Assembly: GCA_017553685.1 (NCBI GenBank)
Contig: JAFZKH010000003.1
Coordinates: 1-64,000 of the forward strand
Length of the DNA stretch: 64,000 bases
Direction of reading: 5' to 3'
Origin: Bacilli bacterium
GTDB lineage: Bacteria > Bacillota_I > Bacilli_A > RF39 > UBA660
A program made the translations under genes and the position numbers. The notes beneath the pieces are model-generated. The model searched no databases and was not told the DNA's origin. It was given only the letters and a program-made list of their open reading frames with translations. Shown piece after piece: positions 955 to 12,947 of the stretch (its first letter is position 1; every line of letters starts with the position of its first letter).

Positions 955-2079
955 ATGGGTGTGTATAAAGACAAAAGGCCTACTAAAGATGGTAAGATTT
1001 GGTTTTTTAAGACTCAATATGAAGATATTGATGGTACTCATAAAACTAAAAAATCAGGTAGATATGCAACTAAAAAAGAAGCAGAAGATGCTGAGTTTGA
1101 ATTTAAATTAAAACTAAGAGAATATGAAAATACTAATAATGTAACTTTTGAAGAAATGATTAGGATGTTTATTGATTTTAGAAAGGATAAAGTTAAAGAA
1201 AATACTTTATATGGTTATAACAATAAATTACCCTATTTAAAATCGTTATATAAGGTTAAATTAAAAGACTTTAATTATCCTGTTTTTGAAAGATGGCATG
1301 ATGAAATAAATAGCACTCATCTTGCTACAAGAACTAAGAATGATATTTATAAGCTATTAAAGACTATTTTAAATTATGCTACTGCTTGTCATGAGTTTAA
1401 TTTTGCTAAGGTATATCCTAAAATGTATAACTTTAATGATCCTAATGAATTTCCTAAAGAACAATTATTCTTTACTTATGAAGAATTTAAACAATTTCTT
1501 TCTGTTGAAACTGATATTAAGTGGATTGGTATTTTTGAAATATTATATTATTGTGGATTAAGACGTGGTGAACTTAGAGGATTACAATGGAAAGACATTA
1601 ATTTTAAGGATAGAACTTTAAGCATAACAAAGCAAATTAATGACCGCTGTGGTTCCATCAAAAACTGGCGATTCTCGGTTCCTAAAACCAAAAGTAGTAT
1701 AAGAACCTTAAAGATGCCACAAGTCCTTACAAATGACCTTAAAATGATGAAATGCGAGGCAGAAAAGATATCTGGATTCAATGATAATTTCTTTGTAGCT
1801 GGAGATATATTTCCTGTATGTAGTAATACTCTAACCCATCATAAAAATATTAACTGCAAACTTGCTAATGTTAAACAGATTCGATTGCATGATTTCAGGC
1901 ACTCATGTGCATCTCTTTTGGTTAATAAAGGAGCCAATGTGCAAGTTGTTGCAAAATACCTAGGACATACAAAAGTTGAAGAAACACTAAAAACTTATTC
2001 GCACCTTTTTACAAGCACTTTAGATGAAGTGGTTGCCGTAATAGATAATTTAGATAACAATAAAACCGACGAATTCTAA
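955..2079 (+). CDS. int: Tyrosine recombinase / integrase
   Basis: A 374-residue site-specific recombinase of the Tn916/phage integrase type that would excise and insert the surrounding element. The N-terminus (1-60) resembles the beta-rich arm-binding domain, 65-150 is the SAM-like core-binding domain, and the catalytic domain spans about 170-370. Visible catalytic features are the first Arg in Gly-Leu-Arg-Arg-Gly-Glu, a Lys in the Pro-Lys-Thr-Lys segment, His-Asp-Phe-Arg-His, Leu-Gly-His and the Tyr nucleophile in Thr-Tyr-Ser-His. Length is normal for the family. It converges on the RelA/SpoT-domain gene, with a shared terminator. No att site could be assigned. Confidence 0.93.
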   Translation: MGVYKDKRPTKDGKIWFFKTQYEDIDGTHKTKKSGRYATKKEAEDAEFEFKLKLREYENTNNVTFEEMIRMFIDFRKDKVKENTLYGYNNKLPYLKSLYKVKLKDFNYPVFERWHDEINSTHLATRTKNDIYKLLKTILNYATACHEFNFAKVYPKMYNFNDPNEFPKEQLFFTYEEFKQFLSVETDIKWIGIFEILYYCGLRRGELRGLQWKDINFKDRTLSITKQINDRCGSIKNWRFSVPKTKSSIRTLKMPQVLTNDLKMMKCEAEKISGFNDNFFVAGDIFPVCSNTLTHHKNINCKLANVKQIRLHDFRHSCASLLVNKGANVQVVAKYLGHTKVEETLKTYSHLFTSTLDEVVAVIDNLDNNKTDEF

Positions 2080-2093
2080 TCATCGGTTTTTTT
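2062..2093. terminator. Bidirectional terminator between int and the RelA/SpoT gene
   Basis: AAAACCGA (2062-2069) pairs with TCGGTTTT (2083-2090), with A-runs to the left and T-runs to the right. It serves both convergent genes, whose 3' ends overlap by four bases. Confidence 0.8.
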
Positions 2094-4892
2094 AGTTTCG
2101 AGTTTGTATGTAGTTTCATCTTTAATTATACTCTTATCTCTTTTATTCTTTTCGATTTGATATAGTGTTTTAAATCTCTTAACTTCTTTATCTACAAACT
2201 CTTTTACTTTCTTATTCTTTGGCCTAAGAGATTTAAAGAATAAACTTTTGTCATTAAATGCGTTTGCAATACCATATTCACCAGATACAACACCGGTATT
2301 GAAAAGTAGACAATCTATTTCATTTAATATTTTATCACTTCCATCAACCTTAGATATAATAAATTCAAAAATTTTCCAGCATGATGTTGAAGCATCAAAT
2401 AATCTACATAAATCTATTACTTTAGTATAAGTTTCATAATTATCATTTTCGCTCAAATATTTTAATATATCACTACCCAATTCATCATTATATTCGCCTA
2501 TCAAGTAATGTATATAATTTGATATTTTATAGTAATCATATTCTTTTAAGATATCCATGCACAATGATAAGTTATTATATCTTTCTTCACTATAATTACT
2601 GCAATCAGTTAAATTAATGTGACTATACGAATTGTATAGATTAGCATTTGGATTGTCAGCAATCTTATTTCTAAGAAGTTTTCTTAAATCATCTGGATAT
2701 ATTTCAAATAAATCGTTTAAAAAATATTCATCTAATCTGTTAAATTCACTATATCTAAAATTAACAAGTAATATTTGTAGGTCATCATAACTATACTTCT
2801 CAATGATCTTTTTTTCTGCATGAGGATTATATAACAATTCTCCCATAATTCCTTTATTGTGATCATTATATTCTTTGACTTTATTTAAGAAATATTTTTT
2901 ATATTTTTCATTATTTACTAAATCGTTATTATTAACAATTAGTTTTAATATACTTAATATCAGTTTTTCGTTTTTATCTTTCTCTGCATATTTTATTATT
3001 CTATCTAATACTTTTAAATCTATATTCCCAGCTCTAAGCATAGCTTGAATAATTTTGTCTGCTTTTATCACATCATCAATTTCATACTTATAATTTTTAT
3101 CTTGTTTAACAATTCCAAGAAATACATATTCATTCCATTTAGTTTTAATTATTTCTTTTCCGTATTTTTTTAATGATCCGACATCAATTAAAAATCTTCC
3201 TGCATTATATATATTTGAATTACAAGTTTCTTCATTGTCCATTGTATTCAATATAGCAATTATTTCCTCAATGTTATCCTCTTTAAAATCTTTAGTATAT
3301 TTATCCAAATATAATTTTCTAAATTCTTCTTTTTCATTGTACTTAGCACCCGGTATTTCATCGATAGAAAAATTAAATATCATTGCATATAGTTTTTGCA
3401 CTTTATCTGCTTTTAATCTTTTATAAAATTTACTATCTTTTAGTTGCGTATTTTTCCAAACACATACAGATTTATATAATTCATTTTTACTAAAAATATC
3501 TATTTTATCATAATTATTATTAAAAAAATCGTATATTGGATTACAGTCAAATATATCAGTATTTCTTTCTAAATCATAGTTAATATTAATCAATGCACGC
3601 AAAGCTTCATTTGAATGATTATTTAAGAATATATTTAATAATTCATCTATTGATCTATATATCTTTGTTTTATAATTATCATTAGGATTTGTCTTATTAC
3701 TTACAAAATTAATTTTATTCTTCTCAACTTCTTCACAATAATTATAGTTTATATCACAAAAGTATTCAGCAAGTTTTATCTTAATATATTCGTCTGCTTC
3801 TTTATCAATTATTAAAGAATATGCCATCTCATGGACATTATAATATCCATATCCTCTGCTAGAATCAGCTTTGTCCGAAACCATTAAATTTTCTAAAAAT
3901 TTATCAAATTTGTCTACAATATTATTATTAACAGATATTCCATATAAAATTGAAATTATATTTTTAAAGTCATCAAGCCATAAATATTTATAATATTGTA
4001 AGAATTCTAATAATTTACCATATTTATATTCATATGTATCATAATTCAAAAAGTTAGCAGTTTCTACAGGTAATTCACTAAACTTTTTCACTATGGAATA
4101 TATTATTCCTGAATCATAAATATTTTTATACTTTTCTTCATTTTCATTAACCAACGGAATGATTTCAACCATTTTATTAATAATATTTTCCAATTCATTT
4201 AAAGAATTTACTTCTTGAAGCTTCTTATTAAAATCTTTATCTAATAATAATTCTATGTTTTTGGCACCTGTTTTGATGCTATCTACACGTCTGTTAATAA
4301 ATTCTAAACTGGCTACAACATTTAATATATCTTTTCTTGATTTTTCAAATATCTTCTTTATTCTTTCATACTCTTTGCTATCCTTTGATTGTAATTCATC
4401 TACATCCTTATAAATTATATTATGCCCAAATTCATTCATTGCATGAGACAATACTGTTGTCAATTGAATTTCACATAACATTCCCTTAAACTTATTTACA
4501 TCTTTTTTTAGTGAAATTGTGATATTAGTTCCATCATATTTCATAATATCTTCAGATGGTCTATATGATTCAATATTAAATTCATCGTAAATAATATCAT
4601 TAAATCTTTTTAAATCTTCTTCATTATAAAAAATAACTCTTACACCACTAAGATCATTTAAATTCTTAATATTACCACAAACCCCATTAATTATTTTTTC
4701 CGTCAATTTATTTTTCAGTGAATCATAAGATTTAACACGACTATTTAATGATTGGTATTTAATTCCATTTTCAATAAGAATATTTTTTACTTTATTCTCA
4801 ATATAAGATGTAAACTCAACATATGATAATTGAGATGATAAATATTCTTTTAACATTTGATCTTTAACCTTTTTTAATTTCTCAAACTCCAT
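2076..4892 (-). CDS. Giant RelA/SpoT nucleotidyltransferase-domain protein
   Basis: This is a 938-residue protein with an N-terminal RelA/SpoT nucleotidyltransferase domain (about residues 30-200) and a long helical C-terminal part (about 210-930) I do not recognise. In the domain one sees Asp-Leu-Ser-Gly-Val-Arg-Val-Ile and Cys-Glu-Ile-Gln-Leu-Thr-Thr, which match the conserved Asp and Glu strands of (p)ppGpp synthetases. The usual Gly-Tyr-Arg-Ser-Ile-His segment is replaced by Tyr-Asp-Gly-Thr-Asn-Ile-Thr. No HD hydrolase, TGS or ACT domain is present. Its place beside an integrase and its solo synthetase domain recall toxic small alarmone synthetases used in anti-phage defence. Function is inferred. 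Start follows GGAGG with 8-base spacing. Confidence 0.7.
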   Translation of the reverse strand: MEFEKLKKVKDQMLKEYLSSQLSYVEFTSYIENKVKNILIENGIKYQSLNSRVKSYDSLKNKLTEKIINGVCGNIKNLNDLSGVRVIFYNEEDLKRFNDIIYDEFNIESYRPSEDIMKYDGTNITISLKKDVNKFKGMLCEIQLTTVLSHAMNEFGHNIIYKDVDELQSKDSKEYERIKKIFEKSRKDILNVVASLEFINRRVDSIKTGAKNIELLLDKDFNKKLQEVNSLNELENIINKMVEIIPLVNENEEKYKNIYDSGIIYSIVKKFSELPVETANFLNYDTYEYKYGKLLEFLQYYKYLWLDDFKNIISILYGISVNNNIVDKFDKFLENLMVSDKADSSRGYGYYNVHEMAYSLIIDKEADEYIKIKLAEYFCDINYNYCEEVEKNKINFVSNKTNPNDNYKTKIYRSIDELLNIFLNNHSNEALRALININYDLERNTDIFDCNPIYDFFNNNYDKIDIFSKNELYKSVCVWKNTQLKDSKFYKRLKADKVQKLYAMIFNFSIDEIPGAKYNEKEEFRKLYLDKYTKDFKEDNIEEIIAILNTMDNEETCNSNIYNAGRFLIDVGSLKKYGKEIIKTKWNEYVFLGIVKQDKNYKYEIDDVIKADKIIQAMLRAGNIDLKVLDRIIKYAEKDKNEKLILSILKLIVNNNDLVNNEKYKKYFLNKVKEYNDHNKGIMGELLYNPHAEKKIIEKYSYDDLQILLVNFRYSEFNRLDEYFLNDLFEIYPDDLRKLLRNKIADNPNANLYNSYSHINLTDCSNYSEERYNNLSLCMDILKEYDYYKISNYIHYLIGEYNDELGSDILKYLSENDNYETYTKVIDLCRLFDASTSCWKIFEFIISKVDGSDKILNEIDCLLFNTGVVSGEYGIANAFNDKSLFFKSLRPKNKKVKEFVDKEVKRFKTLYQIEKNKRDKSIIKDETTYKLETKKTDD

Positions 4893-4960: not shown

Positions 4961-5404
4961 CTACTTTATCTCTTAAATGTCTGCAATAATCACGCAGTTT
5001 TAGCAAAACTTGTTCCCAAGTTGTTCCCAAGAATTCTTTTCAATCTTCTATATGCTTGCAAACCCTTATAAACATTGGCTTAAATCAATTCTATTTTTTC
5101 ATTGGATGTGGCAGGGGGAAGAGAGCAATATAAAAAGATGGATTTTCCATCTTTGTTTGTTTATATCATATTTGCAAAAATTGATTTTTGTATAACAAAA
5201 ATGATTTTTTTGTAGGTGAATTTCTTCTAAAAATAAATATTTGTTATATTTATTTATAAAAAATGAATTTTTGAATTAAAAATAATCAAAAATTGTTTTT
5301 TTGTATATATAAAATCAAATTTTAATCCTTATATATTATTTAATATTTTAGAAATCTTTTTAAAATAATTTCTAAAATATTAAATATAAACAAAAAAAGA
5401 TAGA
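4961..5404. other. AT-rich intergenic stretch with short repeats
   Basis: No convincing gene is seen. The stretch holds a tandem 11-bp repeat TTGTTCCCAAG (5010-5020 and 5021-5031), a 9-bp hairpin with loop TTT at 5134-5154 resembling a plus-strand terminator, several poly-A/poly-T runs of the form AAAATTGATTTTT, and copy 1 of the dispersed palindromic repeat at its right end. It may contain the right end of the integrative element, but no matching att repeat was found near position 1. Confidence 0.5.
5321..5390. repeat. Dispersed palindromic repeat, copy 1
   Basis: An 18-bp perfect inverted repeat, ATTTAATATTTTAGAAAT (5338-5355) with its complement at 5368-5385, encloses a 12-base loop. The flanks, including TTAATCCTTATATATT to the left, are also shared with copy 2. 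The same sequence recurs at 8661-8722 and 12,862-12,930. It lies just beyond the stop codon of the minus-strand hydrolase gene. Confidence 0.9.
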
Positions 5405-6038: not shown

Positions 6039-6118
6039 AAAAAAGAGCAGGAGTACAGGTAAATTCCTGCAGTCATGCTCAATAAACTATGGTACACGAA
6101 ATGACAGTGTAGCATGTT
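6039..6118 (-). ncRNA. 3' segment of the large structured RNA, with terminator
   Basis: This segment holds a 36-nt hairpin module (6045-6080) that recurs at 7793-7828. The outer stem is GAGC/GCTC here and GAAC/GTTC in the other copy, a compensatory change, while the internal part around CAGG-TAAAWT-CCTG is nearly invariant. On the minus strand the hairpin is followed by six T (6044-6039), so it can act as a Rho-independent terminator. A second hairpin, TACAC/GTGTA, lies at about 6091-6112. It follows the stop of the last small ORF. Confidence 0.6.
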
Positions 6119-6119
6119 A

Positions 6120-6374
6120 TTAAAGATAGTTGGGACTTCTTTCAGTTTGTGTTTGACGTAATTCTGCTATTTCAAGCAAGCAATCCATAATCATTTGAGT
6201 ATCAATATTTTCTTTATTTGCAATAATATAGTCTATCATCTTGTTTTGAAGATCTTCTCTTTTTTTCAAAACTAACATAATTCCAATGGTAGTAGTTTCA
6301 TCTACATTTAATACTGCTAATAATCTTACTAAATATATCTCTGTTTGAGTTAAAACATTATCTTTATTATCCAT
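6120..6374 (-). CDS. Small helical protein of the RNA-associated family (member a)
   Basis: An 84-residue unknown protein, predicted largely helical, with no signal peptide. Its middle part (about residues 28-74) aligns by eye with the three upstream small ORFs: a block of the form I-x-I-M-L-x-L-K, then a run of hydrophobic-charged heptads, and a final I-x-x-L-x-L-x-I-A-x-L. It carries an N-terminal extension and a polar C-terminal tail that the others lack. AGGAG lies seven bases before ATG. It is the last of four tandem genes embedded in the structured-RNA region. Function unknown. Confidence 0.65.
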   Translation of the reverse strand: MDNKDNVLTQTEIYLVRLLAVLNVDETTTIGIMLVLKKREDLQNKMIDYIIANKENIDTQMIMDCLLEIAELRQTQTERSPNYL

Positions 6375-6410
6375 ATATATCTCCTAATCAAATCATAAAA
6401 GAAGTATTAT

Positions 6411-6617
6411 CTACTCCTCTGCTATTGTTCTCCTTATTTTCAATAAGTTGTCTATTCTCATCAATTCTTTGTTGTCTTGATTCTTCTTCAAGTAATTTAA
6501 CAGTTTCTTTACTTGATATTCTGTTTTCAATGGATTCAAAATTGAAATTATTGTTTCTTTATTCATATTTGGTATCTTCAATAAGTAATCCATTATCTTA
6601 TTTCTCAATTCTTTCAC
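6411..6617 (-). CDS. Small helical protein of the RNA-associated family (member b)
   Basis: A 68-residue basic helical protein of unknown function. It begins at GTG with GGAAGAG eight bases upstream, and that ribosome site overlaps the end of the preceding small gene, suggesting translational coupling. The segment Ile-Ile-Ser-Ile-Leu-x-x-Leu-Lys-Thr matches the corresponding block in its neighbours, but it is the most diverged of the four. No catalytic motif is seen. Confidence 0.6.
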   Translation of the reverse strand: MKELRNKIMDYLLKIPNMNKETIISILNPLKTEYQVKKLLNYLKKNQDNKELMRIDNLLKIRRTIAEE

Positions 6618-6622
6618 TTACA

Positions 6623-6823
6623 TTACTCTTCCAAATGACATATTTTTAATGCTTTTGTTATTATTTTATCAGTATTTAAATCATTATCTTTATTTTCTAT
6701 CAGCCACTCAATCATTTCTATCTTTTGTTTATCAGTTCTCAATAACATTATTGTTCCCCTGATATCATCCTTTTCTTTCATAAAATTAAGTAATAGGCCT
6801 GCTAAAATTTTTTTCAAATTCAT
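6623..6823 (-). CDS. Small helical protein of the RNA-associated family (member c)
   Basis: A 66-residue protein of unknown function starting at ATG after GGAGG. It is about 60 percent identical by eye to the 67-residue protein at 7017-7220: both contain a Met-Glu-Trp-like Ile-Glu-Met-Ile-Glu-Trp block, a Leu-Arg-Thr motif and the same ending His-Leu-Glu-Glu. The sequence is charged and helical with no membrane segment. A hairpin with a T-run lies just upstream of its ribosome site and may attenuate it. Confidence 0.7.
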   Translation of the reverse strand: MNLKKILAGLLLNFMKEKDDIRGTIMLLRTDKQKIEMIEWLIENKDNDLNTDKIITKALKICHLEE

Positions 6824-6826
6824 CAA

Positions 6827-7016
6827 TATTACCTCCGAATTTTTTAAAAAGCAGGCCTAATAGTACATCGATAAATCTTCACTACATCCTGCTTTATAAA
6901 TCTTGGTACATCTATTTATAATAGAATTTTTACAGATTTTCATCCAACCAAATTCTAATAATAGTGGTCACTGGTGAGAATTGCCAGCAAGCACCTTTAT
7001 ATATTATCTAATATAT
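6827..7016 (-). ncRNA. Internal segment of the large structured RNA
   Basis: Between two of the small ORFs lie 190 bases packed with complementary arms. AAAGCAGG (6848-6855) pairs with CCTGCTTT (6888-6895). An 8-bp pair TAGAATTT/AAATTCTA (about 6922-6957) follows. A copy of the CAC-stem-loop-GCA module lies at 6969-6989. The first hairpin is followed on the minus strand by T5 and the GGAGG of the next ORF. I read it as part of the same RNA as 7228-8045, interrupted by coding sequence. Confidence 0.55.
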
Positions 7017-7220
7017 CTATTCCTCTAAATGTGCTATCTTCAATGCTTGAGTTATTATCATATCTGTTGTTAACTCAGTTTTTTTATAGTTTTTTTCTAT
7101 CCACTCTATCATTTCTATTTGTTGTTTCTCTGTTCTCAAAGTTGATAGAATCCCTATTATATTGTCCTTTTCTTTTATGAAGTGCATCAAAATACCCTTC
7201 AAGATTTCTTTTGTTTCCAT
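7017..7220 (-). CDS. Small helical protein of the RNA-associated family (member d)
   Basis: A 67-residue charged, helical protein of unknown function, first of the four small ORFs in transcription order. AGAGG lies six bases before ATG. It contains Leu-Arg-Thr-Glu-Lys-Gln-Gln followed by Ile-Glu-Met-Ile-Glu-Trp, nearly the same as in the gene at 6623-6823. It follows directly on the long noncoding structured segment, so it would be translated from the same transcript. Confidence 0.7.
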   Translation of the reverse strand: METKEILKGILMHFIKEKDNIIGILSTLRTEKQQIEMIEWIEKNYKKTELTTDMIITQALKIAHLEE

Positions 7221-7227
7221 TTTTTCC

Positions 7228-8045
7228 TCTTAAAATATATAAATACAGAGAACTATACCTAAGTGTTTATCCATAAACTACTGATTCTATCTTGCCGGAT
7301 ATACCAAACAAGACGCACGAATCAGATCATATGAATAAACTATAATAGGAATTACAAGTTCTCTGTAGTAAACTGCTGTAAAGAAATAATCTATTCCCAT
7401 TGATACAACAGTTTATGTTAGACAGGTAAAGTCAAAGTGACCAATATACTCACCATAAAACAGGTGCCTTCCTATTGGGTTCAACTCCTATCTCAAAAAT
7501 GTTCACTCAGACAAGTGCTGAGCAAACCAGGGACAGAATTACCATAACTCGCCCCATTAATATATATTTGATGGATCTAATTTCCAGCAAACATATAATG
7601 GTCTTGGACTCCAATTGTCTGTGCCATTGATATAGATATTATTCATCCATAAAGAACATAAATTAAAGTCCTAAACGAGGAATCTCCAAAGCTTAATGTA
7701 TAACCCTAAGCAACACGTCCTAAACGAATGGAGTACATCCTCTTGATACCGGAAATGATCTAAACCGACCATTTTAATCCAGCACCATAAATGAACAAGA
7801 ATACAGGTAAAATCCTGCAGTCAGGTTCTTTCAAATCGGTGATATATTATCTGTTTCAATAAATAGTCATCGATTTATACTGGTCACTTAGTCCTCCGGA
7901 ACTATTGACCTCTAAGTGGTATTCACTGGGTCTACTTCCCAGCAAGTATCTCTTAGACTAAGGGCTTAGGTTACCATAACCTATCCCATCTATATCAAGG
8001 AAGCAAGCAAATTAGATGGCTCAAAGGCCGAGCTTGTTTCACGAG
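7228..8045 (-). ncRNA. Large ornate structured noncoding RNA (candidate)
   Basis: About 815 bases have no plausible ORF, look richer in G+C than the flanks, and are dense with long-range complementary arms. These include an 11-bp pair (7244-7254 with 7357-7367), a 7-bp pair CTGATTC/GAATCAG nested inside it, a 12-bp pair with one G-U (about 7369-7380 with 7403-7414), and nested GAGGA/TCCTC, CTCCA/TGGAG and GCTTA/TAAGC helices at 7677-7742. Three copies of a CAC-stem-7-nt loop-stem-GCA hairpin occur (7504, 7569, 7924), plus two hairpins with the same AUGGU loop. G-U pairs favour the minus strand. Size and style recall GOLLD or ROOL RNAs, but I cannot assign a family. Confidence 0.6.
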
Positions 8046-8053
8046 ATATCAAT

Positions 8054-8089
8054 TTGAATTTATAGAATTAAATAATTCTATGATATAAT
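8054..8089 (+). promoter_or_regulatory. Extended -10 promoter with inverted repeat for the HTH gene
   Basis: TGaTATAAT at 8081-8089 is an extended -10 element. The inverted repeat ATAGAATT-AAAT-AATTCTAT (8062-8081) lies just upstream, between the divergent structured RNA and the HTH gene, and could be an operator. A weak TTGAAT lies at 8054-8059. Confidence 0.5.
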
Positions 8090-8136: not shown

Positions 8137-8634
8137 ATGTTATTAAAAAAAAGAAAAGAAATACCAAAAGAATTACAATTAGAATTTAATAAAATACAAA
8201 AGGGGAATACTAGTGAACCCGTTATTAAATATTCTTTATCATTAGATGATGATATACTTGAAAATGCTAATAGTGATATATTATTAACAAAACTTGAACC
8301 ATCTTTTAAAGAAGTTCTATTTAATTTTATAGATAGTAAAGGATTAACAGATCCTGAAGTATATAAGAAGGCTAAAGTAGATAAAAGATTATTTTCTAAA
8401 ATAAGAAATGATGAATCTAAATATGTATCTAAAAATACTGTTATATGCTTAGGACTTGCTTTAGAACTTAATCAAGAAGACTTTGATAAGTTACTTAAGG
8501 CTAATCATGATGTATTAAGCGATAACTCTTATTTTGATATAGCTATTAAATGGTGTATTAAGAATAAGATATATGATATAGAACAAGTAAATGATATATT
8601 ATATGCTTGTAATTTAGATTTATTAACTAAATAA
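8137..8634 (+). CDS. HTH-like protein of unknown function
   Basis: A 165-residue soluble protein. The segment about 70-128 looks like a compact helical DNA-binding domain of XRE type: Glu-Val-Tyr-Lys-Lys-Ala-Lys-Val-Asp then Arg-Leu-Phe-Ser-Lys-Ile-Arg, followed by Leu-Gly-Leu-Ala-Leu-Glu-Leu. Proteins with this layout often sit beside stress or ADP-ribosylation genes, and here an ADP-ribosylglycohydrolase gene converges on it from the right. AAAGGAG precedes ATG by eight bases and a terminator follows directly. A regulatory role is inferred only. Confidence 0.6.
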   Translation: MLLKKRKEIPKELQLEFNKIQKGNTSEPVIKYSLSLDDDILENANSDILLTKLEPSFKEVLFNFIDSKGLTDPEVYKKAKVDKRLFSKIRNDESKYVSKNTVICLGLALELNQEDFDKLLKANHDVLSDNSYFDIAIKWCIKNKIYDIEQVNDILYACNLDLLTK

Positions 8635-8660: not shown

Positions 8661-8722
8661 AATCCTTATATATTATTTAATATTTTAGAAATCTTTTTAA
8701 AATAATTTCTAAAATATTAAAT
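8661..8722. repeat. Dispersed palindromic repeat, copy 2
   Basis: The 18-bp arms are at 8675-8692 and 8705-8722, and the 12-base loop is identical to copy 1. It sits beyond the stop of the minus-strand ADP-ribosylglycohydrolase gene, the same relation copies 1 and 3 have to their neighbours. Confidence 0.9.
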
Positions 8723-8744
8723 CTAATAAAAAAGAATATATCAT

Positions 8745-9668
8745 CTACTTATTAATAGTTTCTTCAAATTTATTAGCTAATTCTATTAAATAATCTTTTC
8801 TTTGTAATTTATTAATCCATTTTTCAGGTATATCTTTGTATATTATACCTGCCATAGATCCTGTTATGGCTCCTATTGTATCTGTATCTCCTCCTAGATT
8901 AATAGCTCCTATAACAGCTTCTACATAATTACTTGCTTTTAATAATGTCCATAAAGAAGCTTCTAGAGTATCTACTACATATCCAGATGATTTAATATCA
9001 TCTATTTCTAAAGTATTTAAATCTTCTTTTAATATTCTTTTATATAAATCTATAGATTCTTTTGAAAAAGATGAATAATCCTCATTTTTAATAGTATTAT
9101 AGGCCTCTAATTTATCTAATCCTTTAAATAGATTAATAACATATAATACATATATATAACAGCCTAATATAGATATCTCATTTCTATGTGTTAAAGAAGA
9201 TATATTCTTAGTTAATTCTAATATATCTTTTTTATTTAGATCTTTTTTATAACAATAATATGCTACTGGTAATATTCTCATTAAAGAACCATTACCATTA
9301 GATAGAAAGCCATCTATACCTGATTCTAATGCAGGAGTACCTAATTCTATATAATTTCTTATAGCTGCTAAACAAGTTCTACCTACATCAAAAGTATAGT
9401 TATTAGCAGTAAACTTAGAATCATTTATCCAATCTCCAAAGTTTACCATTATATCATCATAGTCCCATATACCTTTATTAATAAATGAGTCCATAGTAGC
9501 TACTTCCATTGATGTATCATCAGACCATGTTCCAGCAGGACCAGCATAACTCTTTTTTAATGTAGTAATTGGAGTATCCATTAAATTAACTCTATCTACA
9601 AATTCTACAGGAACACCCATTGCATCTCCAATAGCATGTCCTATTACTGCAGATACATATTTATCCAT
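8745..9668 (-). CDS. ADP-ribosylglycohydrolase (DraG family)
   Basis: This 307-residue enzyme of the DraG/ARH family hydrolyses the bond between ADP-ribose and an acceptor, reversing ADP-ribosylation. Family marks are Gly-His-Ala-Ile-Gly-Asp-Ala-Met-Gly near the N-terminus, Ser-Asp-Asp-Thr-Ser-Met (metal-binding Asp pair), Asn-Gly-Ser-Leu-Met-Arg, and Gly-Gly-Asp-Thr-Asp-Thr with Gly-Ala near the C-terminus. All metal ligands look intact. The start is the ATG after AGGTGAT. It lies 30 bases downstream of a 530-residue unknown protein on the same strand, so the two may form an operon. No ADP-ribosyltransferase was recognised nearby. Confidence 0.92.
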   Translation of the reverse strand: MDKYVSAVIGHAIGDAMGVPVEFVDRVNLMDTPITTLKKSYAGPAGTWSDDTSMEVATMDSFINKGIWDYDDIMVNFGDWINDSKFTANNYTFDVGRTCLAAIRNYIELGTPALESGIDGFLSNGNGSLMRILPVAYYCYKKDLNKKDILELTKNISSLTHRNEISILGCYIYVLYVINLFKGLDKLEAYNTIKNEDYSSFSKESIDLYKRILKEDLNTLEIDDIKSSGYVVDTLEASLWTLLKASNYVEAVIGAINLGGDTDTIGAITGSMAGIIYKDIPEKWINKLQRKDYLIELANKFEETINK

Positions 9669-9706
9669 ATATATCACCTATAAATATAATATCATATACT
9701 CCCTTA

Positions 9707-12861: not shown

Positions 12862-12930
12862 CTTTAATCATTATATATCATTTAATATTTTAGAAATCTT
12901 TTTAAAATAATTTCTAAAATATTAAATATA
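12862..12930. repeat. Dispersed palindromic repeat, copy 3
   Basis: Arms at 12,880-12,897 and 12,910-12,927 match copies 1 and 2 perfectly, as does the 12-base loop. Flanking bases differ slightly (TTAATCATTATATATC to the left). It lies between the toxin-immunity operon and the 3' end of the convergent Bro-N gene. Confidence 0.9.
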
Positions 12931-12947
12931 AACAAAAATAAGATAGA

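Follow-up and report, generated by a model that had tools for sequence, protein, structure and literature searches.

The window analysed here (64,000 nucleotides) formed part of a 134-kb contig in a 950-kb assembly, a 0.95-Mb Firmicute-type MAG of a gut bacterium, and the RNA locus described below lay within a mobile-looking island. Genes for a phage-type repressor (59-772) and a tyrosine integrase (955-2079) stood in the variable stretch around the locus, together with those for a hydrolase, a DinD-like protein and an ADP-ribosylglycohydrolase (8745-9677); dnaA- and gyrB-like genes were located at about 31-40 kb. A 938-aa protein with a RelA/SpoT domain (2076-4892) adjoined the integrase, gave no PADLOC match and was retained as a candidate conflict gene. 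Copies of a 65-bp AT-rich palindromic repeat, found by repeat search on either side of the RNA cassette (5326-5392 and 8663-8726), may mark its boundaries. A third copy was present in the window (12868-12934) and one further copy on contig 9, the repeats flanking the cassettes of the island; in genome G007, of the same genus, copies adjoined its own RNA cassette.

Rechecking of positions confirmed the layout of three non-coding pieces and four ORFs on the minus strand. In transcript order, the locus comprised a 5' RNA piece of 818 nt (7228-8045), ORF4 (7017-7220), an RNA piece of 190 nt (6827-7016), ORF3 (6623-6826), ORF2 (6411-6617), ORF1 (6120-6374) and a 3' module (6039-6119) made of hairpin A (about 6115-6089) and hairpin B, followed by T6 (6080-6039). 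An HTH-like gene (8137-8634, plus strand) diverged from the RNA, and a 20-bp palindrome between the two (ATAGAATTAAATAATTCTAT, 8059-8078) is a candidate operator.

The strong structure attributed to the minus-strand pieces exceeded chance. It was most pronounced in the 818-nt piece (-263 kcal/mol, MFE -263.1, z = -7.8), clear in the 85-nt tail (z = -3.8) and modest in the 190-nt piece (z = -2.5), and a 150-nt window scan gave a mean z of -2.3 in the RNA pieces vs -0.6 in neighbouring coding DNA. The plus strand of the 818-nt piece was also significantly structured (z = -9.2). G-U pairs, which the original prediction had taken as a sign of the minus strand, numbered 42 on the minus and 14 on the plus strand, and shuffled sequences gave 47 and 19; the counts thus reflect base composition and carry no strand evidence. 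It is the four ORFs, the T-run of the terminator and the relatives in other genomes that support the minus strand.

The hairpin with T6 at 6039-6080 had the features of an intrinsic terminator on the minus strand, in agreement with the proposed transcript end. Other terminator-like hairpins occurred inside the locus, at 7527-7501 and, shortly before ORF3, at about 6894-6846. A single continuous transcript is therefore not assured, and the region of about 8050 showed no strong promoter. The notion of one long RNA, part scaffold and part mRNA, stood only in part: the strong structure, the modules, the terminator and the ORFs set in between were all found, whereas one giant folded RNA was not supported. 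Only the 3' module and its hairpin B had detectable relatives. For most of the 818-nt piece no homologue was recovered from 98 related genomes, nor from phage or plasmid collections; no phage in the collection matched any part of the RNA, and two Borrelia plasmid matches were 38-nt chance hits.

Four small ORFs set between the RNA pieces

As had been proposed, the four ORFs encode paralogous small proteins. A Shine-Dalgarno-like (SD) sequence preceded each of them (AGAGGA for ORF4), and the comparison of ORF3 and ORF4, which were 61% identical, displayed purifying selection (pN 0.23, pS 0.82); both observations indicate real genes. ORF3 was listed with a TTG start, its real start being probably the ATG at 6823-6821, a few bases further inside and behind GGAGG. 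ORF2 (68 aa) began with GTG, and ORF1 was the longest (84 aa). AlphaFold2 predicted a confident four-helix bundle for the 67-aa product of ORF4 (pLDDT 93.9).

The family gave no significant match in Pfam, PHROGs, PADLOC, NCBIfam or PDB. One good fold match was obtained in the viral structure library BFVD, to an unnamed 64-aa phage protein (TM 0.84, E 0.039). Sequence relatives were rare: the same genome carried a single paralogue on contig 7, where the 3' region was only weakly structured (z -1.9), and one further relative was present in G221, located in a prophage near a tail-collar-like ORF. The fold match to a phage protein and the neighbourhood of the G221 relative suggest that the family is phage-derived. 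The strong fold beside the G221 relative was not a copy of the window RNA and arose from tandem short hydrophobic-peptide genes; these duplicated genes, with their strong hairpins (L089 1820-2530), resembled a type I toxin-antitoxin locus.

Repeated hairpin modules and their relatives

The hairpin modules were repeated within the window, as anticipated: hairpin B occurred twice, the tail module had a diverged copy, and hairpins of the form UUGCUGG...CCAGUGA recurred. The internal copy of hairpin B (7787-7828, minus strand) was 81% identical to the tail copy and ended in a degenerate T-run (ATTTAT); it scored 65.4 bits with covariance model R1, a model trained on that very copy. The diverged tail module (6846-6911, minus strand) had a GCAGG...CCUGC stem with U5 immediately before the ORF3 SD, an attenuator-like arrangement, and its similarity to the tail (50.5, against 26.3 +- 4.1 for shuffled sequences) was reached in 0 of 300 shuffles. 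Pattern search located UUGCUGG...CCAGUGA hairpins on the minus strand in the 818-nt piece (7915-7945) and in the 190-nt piece (6963-6990), the only two occurrences in the genome, the pattern being absent from all 59 relatives searched; a weak third copy (7572-7590, minus strand) was 84% identical to the first over 19 nt (E 0.9). Fold and repeat comparison also revealed a minus-strand GUUAUGGUAA motif at 7971-7980 and again at 7539-7548, the second copy lying in a long-range helix of the MFE fold. The broader likeness of the 818-nt and 190-nt pieces was weaker (6/300 shuffles). On the simplest reading of these repeats, the RNA would have grown by module duplication, the small ORFs duplicating too.

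The whole 3' module was recovered by BLAST in G007 (84% identity over about 88 nt, E 2e-19; 86% over 78 nt in another comparison). None of its 21 pairs was broken, and one both-sided and two one-sided changes were counted (hairpin A, one of each; hairpin B, one one-sided), a comparison of two sequences being too small for statistics. Hairpin B alone was present in a third genome, G009, inside a 350-nt intergenic RNA, and an exact pattern scan added two loci, L039 and L043. Over the resulting six sites (two in the window, four elsewhere), representing five distinct sequences, 96.9% of cells were paired and two pairs had changed on both sides, so the helix of hairpin B was kept with compensatory change as in a structured-RNA family, with too few sequences for strong statistics. 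The core GACUGC.GGA.UUUACC.GUA.UC was invariant at all six sites. A covariance model of hairpin B found two weaker copies (L046 and L047). The other genomes of a family sample of 386 gave no copy, and a class-level set of 395 genomes gave none that was convincing; hairpin B had no further repeats elsewhere in the window genome. The module is rare. A T-run followed the hairpin in G007 and at L039, L043, L046 and L047, a good one being missing from the mid-copy of the window and from the G009 copy.

Several other matches were discarded. A hit of R1 in G726 (L053) was an ordinary terminator after a gene, BLAST matches in G010 (C10) and in the window genome G000 (C4), both to query positions 178-207, lay by chance within one long coding gene shared by the two genomes, and searches of a viral contig collection with the hairpin, UUGCUGG and hairpin-A patterns gave only chance coding matches.

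Conservation of the apical and internal-loop sequence of hairpin B goes beyond what a terminator needs and suggests a candidate binding site. The small ORF family was absent at every other locus carrying hairpin B. The hairpin therefore does not need these proteins, and its ligand may be another protein.

Four of the other loci (L039, L043, L046 and L047) carried hairpin B as a stand-alone unit of about 45 nt, made of promoter-like sequence, hairpin and terminator. All four displayed a perfect TTGACA separated by a 17-nt spacer from a box reading TATAAA, TAGAAG or TATATT, placed 7-13 nt before the hairpin, with a T-run after the hairpin. Such promoter-like sequences thus occurred at 4/4 stand-alone sites, against a background of 1% in random stretches of the same loci, and the hairpin copies inside the long RNAs had none. 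One unit was intergenic. The other three were nested, in antisense orientation, in MuF_C-domain genes or relatives of these (L039 4208-4249, L046 1501-1541 and L047 1501-1541), two of them in element-like contexts; they occupied homologous positions, so the four units represent two independent settings. MuF_C polyvalent proteins belong to phages and conjugative elements (PMC5512222, PMC5576092), and the ORFs on either side of the window locus showed no MuF_C gene. Read on the coding strand, the nested hairpin stretch gives a linker peptide, which in L039 and L046 is TGxxPxxSS. No sense gene stood directly behind the hairpin at L043 or at the MuF_C loci.

The G007 module closed a longer unit, in the order promoter, leader, HTH gene, DIP1984-like gene, 430-nt RNA and terminator module, followed by a kinase gene. 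This unit and the window island shared one hot spot, beside spoVG, and an HTH gene was linked to the RNA in both long-RNA loci of the hot spot (the HTH homologue adjoining the RNA in G007, E 1.3e-27); the arrangement in G007 is analogous to that of the window. Elsewhere, relatives of the HTH gene stood next to genes for vWA and macro-domain proteins, and the neighbours in G023 included a DUF2828 gene, which we take to be Ro60-like. A leader RNA of the HTH gene was conserved in G007 (L052 11612-11460), G023 (L116 1390-1530) and G053 (L117 560-720), and in these leaders UAUAUGAA could pair with the SD/start region UUCAUAUG. An internal TGA stop interrupted the HTH homologue of G053 (L117 721-1085), adjacent to a DUF4116 gene, and the structured region of that genome included this broken gene and its leader, not the window RNA module.

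The gene order in G023 recalls Ro60 / Y RNA loci, the HTH relative adjoining both the DUF2828 gene and a short intergenic RNA candidate; this candidate (L116 1900-2137), between the two genes, is possibly Y-RNA-like. The window locus differs in that DUF2828 was found only in G023 among eight genomes, being absent from the window genome, G007 and G009, and Rfam gave no Y RNA match.

Possible roles of the RNA and its miniproteins

The original prediction had likened the locus to large ornate RNAs, and the Rfam scan it proposed as a check returned nothing relevant, at the gathering threshold or at E values up to 5. The covariance models of ROOL, GOLLD and OLE did not match the window even at E up to 5, and the RNA belongs to no named ornate-RNA family. 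To our knowledge, OLE does not have its proteins encoded as tandem miniproteins within the RNA, whereas the candidate partners at the window locus are tandem miniproteins encoded between RNA pieces. OLE, ROOL and GOLLD make large structured RNAs in mobile DNA a known kind (PMC12286853), OLE being a large Bacillota RNA that works with dedicated proteins, Oap (PMC9723947, PMC12054373). GOLLD, described in PMC12286853 as ornate, longer than 800 nt and phage- and prophage-associated, is likewise large, and the window RNA differs from it by its modular hairpin-terminator units between ORFs. ROOL resembles the window RNA in size, structure and occurrence in Firmicute/gut-type and mobile DNA; no ORF inside ROOL was found described in the consulted passages of PMC12286853, where ROOL and GOLLD are often placed near tRNA islands, and ARAGORN found no tRNA in the 64-kb window. 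Hairpin-terminator modules alternating with paralogous miniproteins, with a nested 45-nt version, were not found described in open-access text.

Tentatively, and as the first choice among several readings, the locus may be an operon of a mobile element or conflict island in which the predicted miniproteins bind the modules of their own RNA as a small RNA-protein system. Transcription would start near 8050, divergent from the HTH-like gene, run down the minus strand and end at the 6039 terminator. The untranslated parts would be built from hairpin A, the terminator-like hairpin B and the UUGCUGG hairpins, in repeated use, and the four paralogous four-helix miniproteins would have these modules as their targets, on which they would pack as a dedicated RNP or at which they would control read-through. 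Proximity and co-duplication suggest such a functional coupling of RNA and ORFs, and a link to phage conflict may be considered. In the mobile elements of relatives, hairpin B alone, as an RNA of about 45 nt, could work in trans, as a decoy for the same kind of protein or as its regulator. The operon reading draws support from the structured RNA, the tail module kept in G007, the invariant core and covarying pairs of hairpin B, the three module copies of the window with one directly before ORF3, the selection on the ORFs with their SDs, the confident four-helix fold with its phage match and the G221 relative, the stand-alone units and the linked HTH genes. Against it count the absence of the small ORF family from the other hairpin loci, the weakly structured 3' region of the contig 7 paralogue, the modest structure of the 190-nt piece, the lack of a strong promoter at about 8050 and the homology of the genes around three of the four stand-alone units.

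This operon is favoured over a pure array of cis-regulatory attenuators, a close competitor that we nonetheless hold somewhat unlikely, in which leaders and terminators would gate the small ORFs (under control of the HTH protein, of translation or of another factor) and the RNA would have no role off its own transcript. The series of terminator-like hairpins (7527-7501, about 6894-6846 with U5 before the ORF3 SD, and 6045-6080) fits an attenuator array, as do the spacing of hairpin B behind promoter-like sequence in four relatives, which is an attenuator layout, and the conserved leaders with SD-pairing potential of the relatives' HTH genes. Yet 818 nt far exceeds the size needed for a leader, hairpin B is conserved beyond the requirements of a terminator, and at L043 and the MuF_C loci the hairpin has no sense gene directly behind it.

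Less probable still, hairpin B could be the actual product, a trans-acting small RNA released from 3' ends or made alone as about 45 nt, the rest serving as carrier. The four stand-alone units, with their strong promoter-like sequences and T-runs, and the hairpin being the sole part conserved at all loci speak for such a source, but it leaves the 818-nt structure and the repeated modules unexplained, and neither the mid-copy of the window nor the G009 copy ends in a good T-run.

That the locus is decaying or composite mobile-element DNA, its palindromes the by-product of a DNA-level function (REP-like or ssDNA hairpins), appears improbable. Both strands score as structured, AT-rich palindromes lie at the cassette flanks and the two hairpin copies have the same orientation; against this stand the purifying selection on the ORFs, the strand-specific T-runs and promoter-like sequences of hairpin B in relatives, and the lack of repeats of hairpin B elsewhere in the genome. 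End hairpins of the IS200/IS605 type were rejected for the two same-orientation copies, which lie 1.75 kb apart with no transposase between them and have relatives with promoter-like sequence and T-run. Least probable of all is an RNA-only ornate scaffold like the homo-oligomeric ROOL or GOLLD, with the ORFs as accidental neighbours, for which size, dense helices and mobile context argue, but which is met by the absence of Rfam matches to ROOL, GOLLD and OLE, of a conserved core and of a tRNA in the window.

Few large structured RNAs of bacteria are known, most of them lacking an assigned function or protein partner. A miniprotein-binding operon of the kind favoured here would provide a candidate partner family encoded between the RNA's own modules. 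It is a doubtful but conceivable prospect that the locus represents a new RNA-protein system, in which a modular RNA and its own tandem miniproteins alternate on one transcript and the key hairpin has spread through mobile elements as an RNA gene of about 45 nt, nested even in genes of phage-type polyvalent proteins. The minimal 36-nt hairpin, with its covariation, and the stand-alone version of about 45 nt make binding testable with tiny molecules. Were it true, this reading would moreover contribute a hairpin RNA gene lying antisense inside the genes of mobile elements.
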